Assembly: GCA_021768625.1 (NCBI GenBank)
Contig: JAETUM010000016.1
Span: 1 to 50,609, forward strand
DNA length: 50,609 nucleotides
Direction of reading: 5' to 3'
Origin: Candidatus Stoquefichus sp.
GTDB lineage: Bacteria > Bacillota_I > Bacilli_A > Erysipelotrichales > Coprobacillaceae
The translations under genes were made by a program, and so were the position numbers. Every line of letters begins with the position of its first letter. The stretch's first letter is position 1. This document shows positions 6,862 through 22,385 of the stretch, in pieces. A model generated the notes under the pieces. It saw nothing but the letters and a program-made list of their open reading frames with translations. It searched no databases and was not told the DNA's origin.

Positions 6862-8249
6862 AAATCGTTGATAAGATGAAAGATGATGAGTTAGGGTTAG
6901 CTCTTCTTTACAATTTTACAAAAGGATATGGAAAACCTGTTCCTATGGATTATTATGATATTGTTTTACCATTATTGTATAATGACACTTTTAGAAGTGA
7001 GATACAGAATCATAATAATATTATGGATTGTATAAATGCATGTATTATTCAAGAAGAATATTTTCAAGAAAATATTCTAAAGAGTATTGAAGATTATCAA
7101 CCAATGACATCTAAAGCTTTGGGAGTTGCTATGATTCAACATATTTTGAATTTTCAAATTGTTGATCAAACAATGTGTGGTGTTGCTTTAGAATCAACAA
7201 TACTTGACTTAAATGAAGCAATTTTATTAGGTCAAATGCTTCAAAATTTATCAATGGATGAAATAAGGGATTTATTGAAAAGAAAAAATAAAAAAATAGT
7301 TATATTACAAGCAGCTTCTGTGGGGCAAGATTTAGATTTATCTCACTTTCATCAATTAGGTCATGTTGTTATGTATGATTATACATTACAGGAAGAAGTA
7401 AGAGAGAGAATACAAGATGCACAGATTGTTATAACAAATAAGAATTTAATGAATGAAGAAGTTTTATCAGGATTAGATCAATTAGAGATGATTGGTTTAA
7501 CAGCAACAGGTGTAAATAATATTGATTTAGACTATTGTCAAAAGCATCATATTAAGGTTGTGAATGTTAAAGGTTATTCTACAGATACAGTTGCACAACA
7601 TACAATTGCATTACTTATGCATTTAGTAGAGAAAAATGCTATTTATGATCATTATGTTAAATCAAAGGAATATGAAAGAAGTGGATCTTTTAGTTATTTT
7701 AATGATGTTTTTCATGATATTTCATCCATGACATGGGGAATAGTAGGATTAGGAGATATTGGTCGAAAAGTCGCTTTAATAGCAACTACTATGGGAGCGA
7801 AAGTTCAATACTATTCAACAAGTGGAAGAAATAGTACAGCAGATTATCAACAAGTTGATTTTGAAACATTATTAAAAACATCAGATATTATTAGTATTCA
7901 TGCGCCACTTAATGAAAATACAAAGTATTTATTTAATGAAGAGGCATTATTAAAAATGAAAAAGTCAGCTTATTTAATTAATGTGGGTAGAGGTGGTATC
8001 ATTGATGAAAAAGCTCTTGTTAAAGTATTCAATGAAGGGCATTTAGCAGGTATTGGCTTAGATGTGTTTGAACATGAACCATTACTAGAAGATGATATTC
8101 TTTATCAAATCAAAGATATGGATAGAGTTATATTAACACCACATATTGCTTGGGGTTCAATAGAAGCTAGACAAAGATGTGTTGATGAAGTTTATAAAAA
8201 TATTTTGGCTCATTTAAAAGGTGAAAAACGAAATATTGTTGTTGAATAA
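6858..8249 (+). CDS. D-2-hydroxyacid dehydrogenase with N-terminal helical extension
   Basis: 463 residues. From about residue 150 on it is a D-isomer-specific 2-hydroxyacid dehydrogenase (3-phosphoglycerate dehydrogenase-like): TGVNNIDLDYC, the NAD-binding GLGDIG (about 298-303), NVGRGGIIDE with the substrate-binding Arg, GLDVFEHEP, and the catalytic His in TPHIAW (residue 429). The first ~130 residues are an extra predicted helical domain (around LLYNFTKGYGKPVP and DIVLPLLY) that ordinary members (about 310-330 residues) lack. There is no ACT domain, so it is not a classical regulated SerA. It starts with GGAGG spacing inside the previous gene and is followed by a clear terminator. The true substrate cannot be told from sequence. 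Confidence 0.85.
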   Translation: MKIVDKMKDDELGLALLYNFTKGYGKPVPMDYYDIVLPLLYNDTFRSEIQNHNNIMDCINACIIQEEYFQENILKSIEDYQPMTSKALGVAMIQHILNFQIVDQTMCGVALESTILDLNEAILLGQMLQNLSMDEIRDLLKRKNKKIVILQAASVGQDLDLSHFHQLGHVVMYDYTLQEEVRERIQDAQIVITNKNLMNEEVLSGLDQLEMIGLTATGVNNIDLDYCQKHHIKVVNVKGYSTDTVAQHTIALLMHLVEKNAIYDHYVKSKEYERSGSFSYFNDVFHDISSMTWGIVGLGDIGRKVALIATTMGAKVQYYSTSGRNSTADYQQVDFETLLKTSDIISIHAPLNENTKYLFNEEALLKMKKSAYLINVGRGGIIDEKALVKVFNEGHLAGIGLDVFEHEPLLEDDILYQIKDMDRVILTPHIAWGSIEARQRCVDEVYKNILAHLKGEKRNIVVE

Positions 8250-14519: not shown

Positions 14520-14686
14520 ATAAAAGTGTTTTAAATTAATATTTAAATTCAGCTTATTTTCTATGATATTATGCCATTTCTAAACAAAATATAAACTAAA
14601 AACATTATAAAATAATTTTTAGTTTTATAATATGAAATAATCAATATTCATATTTTTAAAATAGGTAACAGTATCACGAGAAGAGA

Positions 14687-14835
14687 AAAGCTTTTTAGAG
14701 AAATCACTATTGATGTCAATAGTGATTTTGTTTGCTTTATATTCATCATTGAATTTAGCGATTTGAAGTTTAGTGCAAGAAAGGGAATTATTAGTTATTT
14801 TTAGAAGATGATTATGTTTACCGATAATCTTAACA
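14687..14835. repeat. 149-bp dispersed repeat, copy A
   Basis: Matches 17570-17718 over its full length with 10 substitutions and no gaps (about 93% identity by eye). Each copy lies upstream of one of the two surface protein genes. On the minus strand copy B is open (VKIIGKHNHLLKIT...KITININNDFSKKL) and copy A keeps the same reading with conservative changes, so it may be a coding remnant of an unknown mobile gene. Confidence 0.85.
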
Positions 14836-14888
14836 CTATATTAAGCGTTTTAAGAGATTAAGTTATTTATAACTGTCAAAAACTCATG

Positions 14889-14919
14889 TTGACAAAAATA
14901 TACGGGGGGGGGGTATAAT
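14889..14919 (+). promoter_or_regulatory. promoter with a ten-G tract in its spacer (probable phase-variable promoter)
   Basis: A perfect -35 (TTGACA, 14889-14894) and a perfect -10 (TATAAT, 14914-14919) are separated by 19 bp, of which the last ten (14904-14913) are all G. The optimum spacer is 17 bp, so loss of one or two G by slipped-strand mispairing would strengthen it. It drives the surface protein gene at 14972. Seen: boxes, spacing and tract. Inferred: phase variation. Confidence 0.8.
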
Positions 14920-14971
14920 GAGGGTGTATAAATACAAAATTATAAAAAAGATGGGAAAGGAGTAATTTAAT

Positions 14972-17332
14972 ATGAAAGAAAAAAATTTAGAAAATGAAGT
15001 TAAGAAAGTTTTTATTATTCTATTTTGTATAATATTAGCGTTATCTTTGTGCACTTTTGCTTATGCGACGGATGAAGAAAGTTTAATAGATAATAGTGTA
15101 TTATTGGAAAATAAAGATACGAAAAAAAGTGATAATCAAGATGAAGTTATAGAAGATGGTTTAAAGGAACCTAATATAGAATTGATTGATGAAAAAGATG
15201 AAGTGGATAAAAATAAGGATAATCATTTAAATGAAAAAAAATTAGAAATAAATAAAGAAGAGAGTTTAAAAAACGATAATTTTTTACCTAAAGAAAATAA
15301 GAAAACATCAAAAAAATCTTTAAGGATATTAGGAAATGGTACTAGTCTTGATGATTGGAGTTATACATTAGAAGGTAATCGAATTAAATTAAGAGAATAT
15401 AAAGGAACTTCTAATGATATTGTTGTTCCTGGTGAGTTTAGCGGATATGAAGGAAAAGAAGTTGCTTTAATGATAAGAACAGCTGATGGAAGTTACTCTT
15501 TCCCAGAAAGAATAACATCAATTACAATCAATGATGAAGTTCACCGTGTTAAACTAATGAATGGTGGGAATCTTTTTAATGAATGTAAAAATTTAGAAAA
15601 AGCTGATTTAAAAGGTTTAGATACAAGCGAGAGTAAGTTGATGAACAATATGTTTAACGGATGTATTTCTTTAAAAGAACTAAACATGCAATTTGATACT
15701 CATAATGTTATAGATATGTCAGGTATGTTTAATAATTGTGAATCATTAAAATCATTAGATCTGAGTTCTTTTGATACAAAAAAAGTAGTATATATGGATA
15801 ATATGTTTCATTTGTGTAAATCTTTAAAAACAATTGATTTGAGTAGTTTCAATATTGAAAATGTCATACAATTTAATGAAATGTTTGCTTGCTGTCATAG
15901 TCTAGAAAATCTTGATCTAAGTCATTTTAAAACTCATAAAGCAACATCATCAATTGAGTTATTTAGAGATTGTTTTTCATTAAAAACATTAGATATTAGT
16001 CATCTTGATACAAGTCAAATAACATCAATGGATCGTATGTTTAGAGGTTGTACATCATTAGAAAAGTTAGATCTCAGAAATTTTGATACAAGTCATGTAG
16101 CTAGAATGGATATGCTATTTACAAATTGTGCATCATTAAAAACATTATTATTAGGAAATTTTGACGCAACACATGTTAAAGATTTAAGTTATTTATTTGC
16201 AAATTGTACTCAATTAAAAAATATAGATTTTATAGAATTTAAAATGAATGAAAATGCAACAATATATGGTATGTTTATGAATTGTAAAAATTTAAGTCAA
16301 TCTTTAAATATTAGAAATAATAACTCTAGATTTTCTGCGATTTTTACAAATTGTTCAAATATGCATTATTTTGATTTAAGAGAGTTTCCATTAAACAATG
16401 ATGATATTACTAATCTTTGCAATGCGTTCGCTATTTATCCTTCATTAAGTGACGCTCAAAAGTTTATGGAATTGTATGAAGATAGTGAGGATAATTCTGA
16501 TGATTTTTCTGTGGATACTTTTTTAAAGAGTATAAAGGATTATAAAGAATGGTTTTATGATGAGAATCTTCCTAATGAAGGTGTACCAACTTTAGTTTTA
16601 GTATCCAAAAGTGATAATCCTCTTTTAAAATATCAGGATAAGGAGATATGGGAGAAGGCTGTATTGGATTGGTATTCTGTATCATCATGGGATGAATTAA
16701 GTGAGAAAAACAAGAATCAAGCACATGCCTATTTTAATTATTTGTTTTTAAATAGAAAACCGGCAGGTCCTATTTATGATGCTAATGGTGGAGTATTTAA
16801 TGATGGAACAAATGAAAAGACTTATTTTGAAAGCATCGTTATTAGTGATGAATCATTGTTAAAGGTTTCAAAAAATGATATTTCTAAAAAATATATTCCT
16901 ACATATGAAGGTAAGAAATTTAAAGGGTGGTATTTGGATAAAGAATGTGTAACGGAATTTGCTGGTGAAGAAATAATTGATTTAAGAAAAAATGAAAATA
17001 TAACATTGCATCTTTATGCGGGATGGGAGACACTAGAAGAGAATAATCAAGATCCGATAATAGACGAACCTATTAATAAACCAGAAGAAAGACCAAATAA
17101 GGGACCAGAAATAGAAGATATAGAAAATAAAGAAGAAAATAATAAGCCAGATGATAATTCCAATAATCAAAACGATGTTGAAGTGAAAATAGAACCATCT
17201 CCAAATAAAGAAACAAACAATAAAAAAGTTAAAACTGATGATAAAGAAGGAAAAGCACTTGTATTTTTGTTATCAATAATGTTTGCTTCTATAATTAATC
17301 TTCTTCTTTTGAAAAGAAGAACAATGAGATAA
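14972..17332 (+). CDS. BspA-like (DUF285) leucine-rich surface protein with C-terminal anchor
   Basis: 786 residues. A signal peptide (hydrophobic 13-29, likely cut after AYA at 32) is followed by an acidic Lys/Asn-rich stretch, then about ten DUF285/BspA-type leucine-rich repeats (residues ~205-475; pattern LKxLDLSxFDTxxVxxMxxMF). Next come a ~100-residue linker region, an InlB B-repeat/Flg_new-like module (YDANGGVF... to LYAGWE, ~600-690), a low-complexity acidic Pro/Asn spacer, and the C-terminal KKVKTDD followed by a hydrophobic segment and KRRTMR. This is a cell-wall-anchored adhesin-type architecture, but the sorting motif is not LPXTG. The Shine-Dalgarno GGAAAGGAG precedes ATG 14972. 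Expression is probably switched by the G-tract promoter. Ligand unknown. Confidence 0.88.
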   Translation: MKEKNLENEVKKVFIILFCIILALSLCTFAYATDEESLIDNSVLLENKDTKKSDNQDEVIEDGLKEPNIELIDEKDEVDKNKDNHLNEKKLEINKEESLKNDNFLPKENKKTSKKSLRILGNGTSLDDWSYTLEGNRIKLREYKGTSNDIVVPGEFSGYEGKEVALMIRTADGSYSFPERITSITINDEVHRVKLMNGGNLFNECKNLEKADLKGLDTSESKLMNNMFNGCISLKELNMQFDTHNVIDMSGMFNNCESLKSLDLSSFDTKKVVYMDNMFHLCKSLKTIDLSSFNIENVIQFNEMFACCHSLENLDLSHFKTHKATSSIELFRDCFSLKTLDISHLDTSQITSMDRMFRGCTSLEKLDLRNFDTSHVARMDMLFTNCASLKTLLLGNFDATHVKDLSYLFANCTQLKNIDFIEFKMNENATIYGMFMNCKNLSQSLNIRNNNSRFSAIFTNCSNMHYFDLREFPLNNDDITNLCNAFAIYPSLSDAQKFMELYEDSEDNSDDFSVDTFLKSIKDYKEWFYDENLPNEGVPTLVLVSKSDNPLLKYQDKEIWEKAVLDWYSVSSWDELSEKNKNQAHAYFNYLFLNRKPAGPIYDANGGVFNDGTNEKTYFESIVISDESLLKVSKNDISKKYIPTYEGKKFKGWYLDKECVTEFAGEEIIDLRKNENITLHLYAGWETLEENNQDPIIDEPINKPEERPNKGPEIEDIENKEENNKPDDNSNNQNDVEVKIEPSPNKETNNKKVKTDDKEGKALVFLLSIMFASIINLLLLKRRTMR

Positions 17333-17555: not shown

Positions 17556-17569
17556 AATATCAGAAGAAC

Positions 17570-17718
17570 AAAGCTTTTTAGAAAAATCATTATTGATATT
17601 AATAGTGATTTTGTTTGCTTTAAATTCATCATTGAATTTAGCGATTTGAAGTTTAGCGTAAGAAAGGAGATTATCAGTTATTTTTAGAAGATGATTATGT
17701 TTACCGATAATCTTAACA
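17570..17718. repeat. 149-bp dispersed repeat, copy B
   Basis: Second copy of the element at 14687-14835, same orientation, upstream of the calcium-loop repeat protein gene. On the minus strand it lies in a 64-codon open frame (17550-17744) that I treat as a remnant because it lacks a Shine-Dalgarno and any recognisable domain. Confidence 0.85.
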
Positions 17719-17765
17719 TTACGAATAGTGTTTTTTTTAATCACTTCTAATACCCTGCTGAATAA

Positions 17766-17966: not shown

Positions 17967-20900
17967 ATGAAAAAACAAAAGAAAATAACAGCTTTAGCAA
18001 TCAGTACATTTCTTTTATTTTCTGCATTTGGAGAAATTCTTTCTGTTAATGCAGAAGGTGATCAAGTGAGTGCAACAGAAGAAATGACTGGACAATCTAA
18101 TGAAGCCATAGTAGAAGATGACAAACCTTTAGATGATGAATCATTAGAAGATAATAATAAAAAGAAAGCAACTATTAAAAAATCTTCTGATCAATCATCA
18201 AAAAGTGATTTAACACCTCTTGCTGAAGATGATAATGAACAATCTTCAGAAATAACAATAGGTAATTTTAAAGTAACAGGTGGACAACAAGGCACAGATT
18301 ATGCTTTGGAAGGAACAAGCCTTGTGATTAAGACAGAAACACCTTTAACAATTCAAAATGTTGATTCTAATACAGTCAATATAACAAATATTAGAATTCA
18401 ACAAGGAATTACAGCAAATATTACTTTGGCTGGTGTTAATATTCAAAATACAGTCTCAAGTGATTCACCAATTAATATAATGGGAAGTGGAGCAACTTGC
18501 AATATTACTTTAGCTGAAGGAACGGTCAACACATTAAATGCAACAAAATTATATGCTGCTGCATTACACTGTGGTGAAGGTTCTACTTTAACTATCAATG
18601 GTAGTGGGACATTGAATGCTTATGGAGGACATGGTTCAGCTGGAATTGGTTCTGGATTTAATGAAACAGCAGGACACTTGATTTTTAATGGTGGAACAAT
18701 TAATGCCCATGCATGGAGATATGATACAGTAGGTACTGCTGCTCCAGCTGACTCTGTTCCAACTGGTTTTGGTCCTAGTAATTGGGATAGATCAGATCAT
18801 ATATATAGTGGTGGTGCTGGAATTGGAGCTGGAACTTATGGTGGTGCAAGTACTATTACTATTAATGGTGGTACAATCCATGCCTATGGATCTGCTCATG
18901 GAGCTGGTATTGGAGCTTCATATGCTCATAGTACTGCTGGAACAAAACAAACTGGTGCTTCGACAAATACTAGACCTCTTGTATGTGGTGATATTACCAT
19001 TAATGGTGGTTATATTACTTCAAAAGGTTACAGTCATGGAGCAGCATTTGGAGGTTCTTGTGGAACAACTGCAAGTGGATGTACTATTCGAGTAACAGGT
19101 GGAACTTTGTTACCAACTTCTTTACATACTAATCCAGACTTTAATGCTAATGGTACAGGAAAAGTTTACATTACTGGTGGTTCTGTTAATACTAAAGGTG
19201 GAAATAAATTCATGAATGGTAGTACACCAGGTATTGCATATGATAAAGATGGAAAAAACGTTTTTATGGTTAAAATTAACTTGGCTGCAGAAGGTATAAC
19301 AAATGATGCTGTTTCTGACTGGCATGTAACAATTGGTGGAGAAACATATGATTATGGAGCACCATCTTATTTTGATGATGGTAAGTTGTATTTATGGGTA
19401 CCAGAAGCAACAAAAGGAAAAACAATTTCAGTTTCATGTAAACATAATGGTAAACCACTTGAACCACTTTATATTGAAGATACTAAAAATGATGGTACAG
19501 CCGTGTTAAAACGTTATGTAGATTTTGAATTACCAAAAGAATTTATTAATAATTTAACAAAACCTTATGATGGAATATCTTTTGATACATATGATTTTGA
19601 AAAAGAGGGAAATGCTATTGAAGCTGTTGATCAATCAGGAAATAGTAAAACTCTAAATAAAAATGATAGTGTTGTTGTTATATTACAAAGATATGATAAA
19701 GTTGATGGAAAACCAATTGAAGAAGAACATGAATCTACTGGATATACTATGCCTTCTGATGCTGGAATTTATCGTATTCAAATTATTTCAAAACAATATG
19801 CTAATGCTGAAGGTTTTAAGGAGTCTTATTGGGGGCATCGAGCTAGAGGATGGGCAATTATTAATAAAGTGCCTTCTCACTTAGAATCAACTTATGCCAT
19901 TAAACAAAATGCAGCAGATGCTGCAGTTAATCCTGGAAAAATTACAAATGTTAAAGCAACAGCTATTGTTAAGCCTGCTCCAGGTACTGAGGCTACATGT
20001 AAAGTTCCTGATGGTAAAGTACAATTTTATATCAATGGTGTAAAAGTCGGAGCACCAGTGGACTTAAGTCATGCAGCTAGTGGAGAAACGGTAACTACTG
20101 ATGGTAATGTTGTTACAATTGTTAAAGATTTTGATTTTGATGCAGATCATTATCCATCTGTTCCTGAATTAAGTACTGGAGAATTTGTTGTTGAAGCGAA
20201 ATATATTGATGGAACAAATTATGAAGATAATGAAGTTTTATCAGATTTAGTTGGTTGGCCAACTGGTCCTTCAACAGATGTTCCTCCAACAATAGATGAT
20301 ATTGTATCAAAATTCCCATTCATTAATCCACCAACGCCAACTATTGCAGATATGGATGATGAAGATTTAGAACAAAATGAAAAAGTAGAAGGGAATAAGC
20401 TTGTATTAGAAAAAGCAGAAATTATTGAGCAAGAAGGAAAAGATCCAGAAACATGGCCTTTGCATGGTTATTTTGGTGATGAAGTGAAAGAGAGAATTAA
20501 TAGACAAGCAACTGGAGACAGTACATATTTTGTGAATTTAGTTAATGATCGTTATATCTTTACTTCAAAAGCTGGTTATCCTTTAATGAAAGAAGGTAAA
20601 CCACTTCGTGCAACTGCTGCTGATATTAAAGTTTATGATAAAGATGGACAGGAAATTGATTTAGCGACGAACCCAGTCAATCTTTCTAAATTAGGAAACT
20701 ATAAAATTAAGGTAACCGTTTCTGATACAAATGGAAATACATCAACAATTAATATTGATTATAGTTTATACTATGATCCAATTAAAGATATTAATATTGA
20801 TTTAGATGGAGATGATATTCCAGATACAAATATCGATACAGATGGTGATGGCAAACCAGATGTTAATATTGATACAGATGGTGATTGGAAACCAGATGTG

Positions 20901-22385
20901 AATGTTGATACAGATGGCGATGGTAAACCAGATATTAATATTGATACAGATGATGATAGTAAACCAGATGTGAATATTGATACAGATGATGATGGTAAAC
21001 CAGATGTGAATATTGATACAAATGATGATGGGAAGCCAGATATTAATATTGATACAGATGATGATGGAAAGCCAGATATTAATATTGATACAGATGATGA
21101 TGGTAAACCAGATGTGAATATTGATACAGATGATGATGGTAAACCAGATATTAATATCGATACAGATGATGATGGCAAACCAGATGTGAATATTGATAAA
21201 GATGGCGATGGTAAACCAGATGTGAATGTCGATACAGATGATGATGGAAAGCCAGATATTAATATCGATACAGATGGTGATGGTAAACCAGATGTGAATG
21301 TTGATACAGATGATGATGGAAAGCCAGATATTAATATTGATAAAGATGGCGATGGCAAACCAGATATTAATATCGATACAGATGATGATGGAAAACCAGA
21401 TGTCAATATTGTAGACAAAGATGGTGATGGCAAACCAGATGATTTAGATGATAAATGGCCAAATTTAAATGATGTAGATCCAGATATTAATATTGATAAA
21501 GATGGCGATGGTAAACCAGATGTGAATGTTGATACAGATGATGATGGCAAACCAGATGTGAATATTGATAAAGATGGTGATGGAAAGCCAGATATTAACA
21601 TTGATACAGATGGTGATGGAAAACCAGATGTCAATATTGTAGATAAAGATGGTGATGGTAAACCAGATGATTTAGATGATAAATGGCCAAATTTAGATGA
21701 TGTAGATCCAGATATTAATATTGATACAGATGATGATGGTAAACCAGATGTGAATGTTGATACAGATGATGATGGTAAACCAGATGTAAGTATTGATGTA
21801 GATGGCGATGGCAAACCAGATATTAATATTGATACAGATGGTGATGGAAAACCAGATGTGAATATAGTGGATAAAAATAAAGATGGAAAACCAGATGATT
21901 TGGATGATAAATGGCCAAATGATTTAAAAGATGTTAAACCAAATATTAATGTAGATACAAATAATGATGGAAAGCCTGACATTAGCATTGATACAAATGG
22001 TGATGGAAAGCCAGATGTGAATATTGATACAACAGGTGATGGTAAAGCTAATCTTAATATTGACACAAATAATGATGGAAAAGCAGATTTGAATATTGAT
22101 ACAAATGGTGATGGAAAAGCAGATCTTAATGTTGATATAAATGGCGATGGAAAAGCAGATCTTAATATTGATATAGATGGTGATGGAATTGCAGATATAA
22201 ATATCGATAAAGATGGCGATGGAAAGATTGATATTGATATTCAAGGTGATGATACTCAAAAGGTAAATGCTTTAAAGAAAGTCAGAACAAGTGATGATTC
22301 ATCAGTATTAGAATTGACTTCATTAGCAATAGTATCATTATTAATAATCATTTATGCATTTTCATTTAAAAAAGAAGAAGATTAG
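17967..22385 (+). CDS. giant surface protein: beta-helix/Ig-like head on 36 calcium-loop repeats
   Basis: 1472 residues. Signal peptide with probable cut after VNA at residue 29. Residues ~95-410 are a Gly/Thr/Asn-rich region of repeated ITINGG, GAGIGAG and INGGYI motifs, typical of right-handed beta-helix or carbohydrate-binding surface domains. Residues ~515-640 (TKPYDG) look like an MBG-type module, and ~645-760 (GKVQFYINGVKVG) like a bacterial Ig-like repeat. A further ~180-residue module follows. Residues 943-1423 are 36 tandem units of consensus NIDTDGDGKPDV, each with a DxDxDG calcium-loop pattern as in thrombospondin type 3 or dockerin repeats. The end, KKVRTSDDSS plus a hydrophobic segment and KKEED, resembles a non-LPXTG sorting signal. 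ATG 17967 follows GAGAGGAGA. Probably a wall-anchored adhesin on a Ca2+-stiffened stalk (inference). Confidence 0.9.
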   Translation: MKKQKKITALAISTFLLFSAFGEILSVNAEGDQVSATEEMTGQSNEAIVEDDKPLDDESLEDNNKKKATIKKSSDQSSKSDLTPLAEDDNEQSSEITIGNFKVTGGQQGTDYALEGTSLVIKTETPLTIQNVDSNTVNITNIRIQQGITANITLAGVNIQNTVSSDSPINIMGSGATCNITLAEGTVNTLNATKLYAAALHCGEGSTLTINGSGTLNAYGGHGSAGIGSGFNETAGHLIFNGGTINAHAWRYDTVGTAAPADSVPTGFGPSNWDRSDHIYSGGAGIGAGTYGGASTITINGGTIHAYGSAHGAGIGASYAHSTAGTKQTGASTNTRPLVCGDITINGGYITSKGYSHGAAFGGSCGTTASGCTIRVTGGTLLPTSLHTNPDFNANGTGKVYITGGSVNTKGGNKFMNGSTPGIAYDKDGKNVFMVKINLAAEGITNDAVSDWHVTIGGETYDYGAPSYFDDGKLYLWVPEATKGKTISVSCKHNGKPLEPLYIEDTKNDGTAVLKRYVDFELPKEFINNLTKPYDGISFDTYDFEKEGNAIEAVDQSGNSKTLNKNDSVVVILQRYDKVDGKPIEEEHESTGYTMPSDAGIYRIQIISKQYANAEGFKESYWGHRARGWAIINKVPSHLESTYAIKQNAADAAVNPGKITNVKATAIVKPAPGTEATCKVPDGKVQFYINGVKVGAPVDLSHAASGETVTTDGNVVTIVKDFDFDADHYPSVPELSTGEFVVEAKYIDGTNYEDNEVLSDLVGWPTGPSTDVPPTIDDIVSKFPFINPPTPTIADMDDEDLEQNEKVEGNKLVLEKAEIIEQEGKDPETWPLHGYFGDEVKERINRQATGDSTYFVNLVNDRYIFTSKAGYPLMKEGKPLRATAADIKVYDKDGQEIDLATNPVNLSKLGNYKIKVTVSDTNGNTSTINIDYSLYYDPIKDINIDLDGDDIPDTNIDTDGDGKPDVNIDTDGDWKPDVNVDTDGDGKPDINIDTDDDSKPDVNIDTDDDGKPDVNIDTNDDGKPDINIDTDDDGKPDINIDTDDDGKPDVNIDTDDDGKPDINIDTDDDGKPDVNIDKDGDGKPDVNVDTDDDGKPDINIDTDGDGKPDVNVDTDDDGKPDINIDKDGDGKPDINIDTDDDGKPDVNIVDKDGDGKPDDLDDKWPNLNDVDPDINIDKDGDGKPDVNVDTDDDGKPDVNIDKDGDGKPDINIDTDGDGKPDVNIVDKDGDGKPDDLDDKWPNLDDVDPDINIDTDDDGKPDVNVDTDDDGKPDVSIDVDGDGKPDINIDTDGDGKPDVNIVDKNKDGKPDDLDDKWPNDLKDVKPNINVDTNNDGKPDISIDTNGDGKPDVNIDTTGDGKANLNIDTNNDGKADLNIDTNGDGKADLNVDINGDGKADLNIDIDGDGIADINIDKDGDGKIDIDIQGDDTQKVNALKKVRTSDDSSVLELTSLAIVSLLIIIYAFSFKKEED
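20793..22235 (+). repeat. 36-bp tandem repeat array encoding calcium-loop units
   Basis: 1443 bp encode 36 units: 33 of exactly 12 residues and 3 longer ones of 28-29 residues that add a DDLDDKWPN spacer. The units are NI/NV-D-T/K-D-G/D-D-G-K-P-D-V/I, becoming KADL near the end. The near-identical middle units and their alternation (V/I, GATGGC/GATGAT) suggest expansion by recombination; the copy number is likely to vary between strains. Confidence 0.95.

Follow-up and report, generated by a model that had tools for sequence, protein, structure and literature searches.

A poly-G promoter spacer as a putative phase-variation switch of a surface protein gene in Candidatus Stoquefichus and its recurrence in gut Bacillota

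What would an uninterrupted run of ten G residues do between the two boxes of an otherwise perfect bacterial promoter? This question is raised by positions 14889-14919 of a 50,609-nucleotide stretch of DNA from Candidatus Stoquefichus sp. (referred to here as the window), where the + strand reads TTGACA-AAAATATAC-GGGGGGGGGG-TATAAT. A previous sequence-only reading had described perfect TTGACA and TATAAT boxes separated by a 19-bp spacer that ends in G10, all of which proved exact, and had proposed that the tract switches the expression of a surface protein. Nowhere else in the 50.6-kb window (29% G+C) do more than five G residues occur in a row, and no other exact TTGACA-N15-20-TATAAT arrangement is present in it. 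It was also right to regard 19 bp as long for a spacer, since 30 of the 46 listed ordinary TTGACA...TATAAT sites of the genome have 16-17 bp. The coordinates of this promoter, of its surroundings and of the other long G tracts of the genome are summarized in Table 1.

Table 1. Positions of the promoter elements, genes and G tracts discussed in the text (window coordinates unless a contig is given)
Feature	Position	Strand	Remark
Intrinsic terminator	14700..14729	+	13-bp stem; would isolate the putative switch from genes upstream
-35 box TTGACA	14889..14894	+	perfect; read from sequence
Spacer, 19 bp	14895..14913	+	AAAATATAC + G10; read from sequence
G10 homopolymer	14904..14913	+	proposed slippage tract, adjoins -10 box; from sequence, one of three G8-or-longer tracts of the genome
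-10 box TATAAT	14914..14919	+	perfect; read from sequence
Ribosome-binding site AAAGGAG	14956..14962	+	ATG 9 nt further on; from sequence
Gene for 786-aa secreted DUF285/PARCEL-repeat leucine-rich surface protein	14972..17332	+	signal segment, repeats, C-terminal membrane anchor
Second poly-G promoter	C28:7674-7705 (G12 at 7688-7699)		TTGACA-AAATCGCC-G12-TATCAT, 20-bp spacer, then GAGGAGGG
CDS after second poly-G promoter	C28:7746-11978		unrelated 1410-aa surface protein
Third tract, G9	C9:6743-6751		last codons of asparagine synthase (asnB-like) gene

Long G tracts are scarce in this draft genome (2.92 Mb, 138 contigs), in which only three of G8 or longer were found. Two of the three lie between a TTGACA and a TATNAT box, each ahead of a gene for a surface protein with a signal peptide. 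At the base composition of the genome, 0.0004 runs of G10 or longer would be expected per window and 0.02 per genome. TTGACA-N15-21-TATNAT sites number 130 in the genome vs 40 for a reversed-pattern control, and the 98 others that were listed include no spacer with a G run above four. The probability that two of three tracts would fall anywhere in such a spacer is 2e-7, and that their last G would directly precede the -10 box is approximately 1e-9; the placement of G10 in the promoter spacer at 14889-14919 is not due to chance. The protein encoded behind the second poly-G promoter has a signal segment, a Listeria-Bacteroides repeat and a C-terminal membrane anchor. As for the G9 tract, it was set aside as a promoter switch, as it lies inside the end of a gene and no TTGACA-like -35 box was found at promoter distance; a change in its length would alter the C-terminus of asparagine synthase.

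Judging from these features, it is highly probable that positions 14889-14919 make transcription phase-variable in the manner of porA, through slipped-strand mispairing. Lying between the boxes of a sigma-A promoter, the G10 tract would not itself be transcribed, and mispairing of slipped strands in replication would add or remove G residues. The number of G would set the distance between the -35 and -10 boxes and thereby promoter strength, and the downstream gene would switch between high and low or off expression in individual cells. With G10 the spacer measures 19 bp, for which weak or no expression is predicted in the assembled state; the loss of two G would bring it to 17 bp. Promoter-spacer phase variation of a surface protein, as originally proposed, stands as the best reading in view of the second locus, the non-random placement, the secreted or membrane targets and the tract lengths in sister species; what we infer is slippage at 14904-14913 itself, which tract length is ON, and a contribution to colonisation or to immune or phage evasion.

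The target gene had been called a BspA-like adhesin, a label that has to be replaced: its product (P0001) is a DUF285/PARCEL leucine-rich repeat protein, and not a classical BspA, as a profile search returned no match to LRR_5 (PF13306) at E 0.001. Matches to the TIGR02167 PARCEL repeat (162.9 bits vs a curated cut-off of 30; E-value 7e-49) and to DUF285 (PF03382; 179.7 vs 25; E-value 2e-53) are both above the cut-offs, and the protein also carries a Listeria-Bacteroides repeat. At its C-terminus, the residues VKTDD precede a transmembrane (TM) segment and a basic tail, and a search for an LPXTG sorting signal gave no match to an anchor family. Surface exposure of this protein is predicted from the signal segment, the DUF285/PARCEL repeats and the C-terminal TM anchor. 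Relatives within the bacterial family have essentially only the repeat domain in common with it, with identities of at most approximately 50% across part of its length, and no full-length relative was found there. The product of the neighbouring gene (window positions 17967-22385) has 1472 aa; aspartate-rich repeats of the D-G-D-G-K-P-D type form a long array in it, and its C-terminus carries a membrane anchor. In addition, a 173-bp direct repeat (89%) lies upstream of both neighbouring surface-protein genes, at window positions 14679-14851 and 17562-17734, and is absent from the rest of the genome; its second copy is followed by a TTGACA-18-TATCAT promoter that has no G tract.

The same design was found in other organisms. 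The genus was represented by one genome in the search; one other genus of the family has two poly-G spacer promoters, and 11 such sites were detected in 9 of 316 genomes of the order, compared with 0 for the reversed-pattern control. Promoter and gene start at one site (G245) are the same as in a record of Merdibacter massiliensis, a species of the order Erysipelotrichales. A scan of prokaryotes based on one genome per species and the pattern TTGACA-N5-15-G8-TATNAT revealed at least 117 stretches with the TTGACA/poly-G/TATNAT architecture. The matches listed are mostly from metagenome-assembled genomes (MAGs) of Clostridia and Bacilli from animal guts, and also include Saccharibacteria, Streptobacillus, Helicobacter, spirochaetes and others. 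The previous statement that such a promoter is rare in a Firmicute thus has to be withdrawn, the design being recurrent in gut Bacillota. Only three matches to the pattern were detected among the IMG/VR viral contigs, and poly-G promoters are therefore not mainly a phage trait.

Genes behind these promoters tend to encode exported or membrane proteins. An N-terminal signal or TM segment, as judged by a simple hydrophobicity rule rather than a trained predictor, was detected in 95 of 122 downstream genes (78%) among the matches listed vs 121 of 445 control ORFs (27%) from the same contigs (P ~4e-24). When the genes behind poly-G promoters among the matches listed were ranked by Pfam family, LRR_5 (BspA-type) was the commonest (7 of 91), followed by the prepilin N-methylation motif (4 of 91). 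Several loci, namely L068 (Streptobacillus notomytis), L110, L138, L091 and L112, contain paired adjacent genes, mostly paralogous, each of which has its own poly-G promoter, and in some of these loci the tract lengths are unequal. In the literature searched, which excludes most subscription journals, poly-G promoter spacers were not found described for Erysipelotrichales or Clostridia. The mechanism itself is known; what is new, as far as that literature was searched, is that it occurs in Erysipelotrichales and extends widely through gut Bacillota, sets of 30-40 promoters among them.

Spacer lengths provide a second line of evidence. Among the matches listed, poly-G spacers are concentrated at 15-20 bp. 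Their distribution has maxima at 18-19 and 16 bp and a dip at 17, and departs from uniformity (chi-square P ~4e-23). Such clustering fits promoter function, which requires a distance of this kind, whereas chance would give a uniform distribution. Spacers of 17 bp account for 8 of 118 poly-G promoters among the matches listed vs 13 of 43 ordinary sites on the same contigs (P 0.0003); the pattern demanded at least 8 G, and shorter, possibly ON, states would therefore be under-counted, which contributes to the dip. The avoidance of 17 bp suggests that the assembled states are mostly weak or off. The equilibrium tract length may be off the optimum, such that most cells are off, or the optimum may be longer for G-rich spacers. 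Whichever holds, the lengths of the non-G part (8-11) and of the G part are negatively correlated (Spearman -0.44), which implies some selection on the total length of the spacer. Since ordinary strong promoters of the genome centre on 16-17 bp, the 19- and 20-bp states assembled for its two poly-G promoters are predicted to be weak or off. The earlier suggestion that 8 G would give an optimal spacer of 17 bp, with 8 G as a putative ON state, derives from the promoter consensus; the spacers of other genomes peak at 18-19 and 16 bp and dip at 17.

Tract lengths in related genomes, whose comparison the sequence-only reading had called for, were counted from draft assemblies with one genome per species, in which homopolymer lengths carry error, and differ between sister species at conserved promoter cores (10/11 and 10/12). 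The first pair (G147 and G177) has G11 vs G10 behind a common TTGACA-to-tract core and a 400-bp upstream flank that is 95% identical, and the second (G245 and G247) has G12 vs G10, again behind a common core, with more divergent flanks. Within the genome studied here, the two promoters have G10 and G12. In a rabbit-gut Bacilli MAG (G318), 38 of the 41 listed tracts of G8 or longer adjoin a -10-like TANNNT, and their lengths vary from G8 to G11. These differences count against the rival explanation that survives best, an improbable one in our judgement, according to which the poly-G spacer is a fixed promoter element, for example a binding or structural one, that keeps basal strength low or serves a regulator as a recognition signal, with no part in switching. 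Slippage of G tracts of such length in other bacteria (PMC9187656; C. jejuni polyG loci, PMC4965091) points in the same direction. Three observations are nonetheless in its favour: the non-G and G lengths compensate for each other; G occurs only on the coding strand, with 0 matches to the poly-C pattern in 118 genomes of the order; and in a second rabbit-gut Bacilli MAG (G317), in which 32 of 34 tracts adjoin TANNNT, 30 of these 32 are exactly G10. This uniformity, greater than one would expect from free slippage, is the main evidence against it, or else reflects a narrow mutational equilibrium or the consensus of the assembly.

The two rabbit-gut MAGs have 30-40 poly-G promoters each, before paralogous short secreted proteins. 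Twenty tracts were inspected in full in each of them; those of G317 drive families of short secreted proteins, and nearly all of those of G318 stand before paralogous secreted proteins.

Another explanation is that the tract belongs to a reading frame extended upstream, and that its slippage would switch translation. Coding tracts of this sort do exist in a further genome (G316), whose "poly-G TATAAT" sites were rejected as promoters after the tracts turned out to be coding. At 14904-14913, an in-frame TAA stop lies between the tract and the ATG at 14972, just upstream of the latter, and therefore the G10 tract is not coding; the gene also has a proper ribosome-binding site. A coding-frame switch was thus rejected for this locus, and the explanation is very unlikely. 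In G316, more than 20 paralogous genes share the same G10 tract in the reading frame just after a hydrophobic N-terminal segment, and the parts on either side of the tract are in different frames in those copies that were checked, which suggests that this family may consist of translational switches, each assembled in its off state, or may use programmed slippage. Slightly less likely still is a chance G run or an assembly or sequencing artefact, as the joint chance in the genome is only ~1e-7 to 1e-9, the same design occurs in many independent assemblies and spacer lengths are clustered, even if the genome is a draft in 138 contigs and error-prone homopolymer lengths make the exact count of ten uncertain.

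With regard to the promoters as a class, we lean somewhat towards the view that poly-G spacer promoters are a widespread and largely uncatalogued class of contingency switches, present in gut Bacillota and in certain other lineages, of which some species have 30-40 copies that drive families of paralogous secreted proteins, and whose equilibrium length is tuned 1-3 bp off the optimal 17 bp (default off, rare on). It is a realistic prospect that these promoters together form an uncatalogued regulatory system. Work on phase variation in gut Bacillota usually deals with DNA inversion. Since one simple pattern is enough to locate porA-like slippage switches in thousands of genomes, the surface heterogeneity of gut commensals (adhesion, phage receptors, IgA targets) could be read off by counting G lengths at predicted promoters, for which existing deep metagenomic or isolate reads could be used.

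Several known systems share parts of this design. The Mollicutes are descendants of the Bacilli lineage. In Mycoplasma hyorhinis (poly-A tracts, vlp) and M. mycoides (repeats in the promoter spacer, vmm), the transcription of surface lipoprotein genes is switched by repeat tracts within the promoter region or spacer (PMC10502178); the tracts are poly-A or dinucleotide repeats, not poly-G, and the lipoproteins are those of wall-less bacteria. In Ca. Mycoplasma girerdii, BspA-like/LRR surface genes are likewise targets of simple-repeat switches (PMC5476646), although these involve dinucleotide repeats and were assessed through the reading frame. In Bifidobacterium breve, a Gram-positive gut commensal, G10-G11 tracts of pilus genes slip at a high rate and control surface appendages (PMC9187656); the tracts studied there are intragenic and act as frameshift switches, and the organism belongs to Actinomycetota, whereas G tracts in promoter spacers are mentioned in that report without detail. 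The parallel with Neisseria, which had been described as being of just this kind, holds for one of the two genes named. In N. meningitidis opc, the length of a promoter homopolymer also controls an outer membrane protein, but the tract is poly-C and encompasses the -35 region (PMC7864442), and does not act as a spacer-length switch like that proposed for 14889-14919; porA is therefore the only like-for-like precedent. In porA, a poly-G tract lies between the -10 and -35 boxes, and the number of G sets their spacing, with 17 bp being optimal (PMC7864442). In both loci, a surface protein gene has a coding-strand poly-G tract between its -35 and -10 boxes, whereas the locus described here belongs to another phylum, is a predicted switch, and combines a perfect TTGACA with a tract that adjoins a perfect TATAAT at a spacing of 19 bp, above that optimum.
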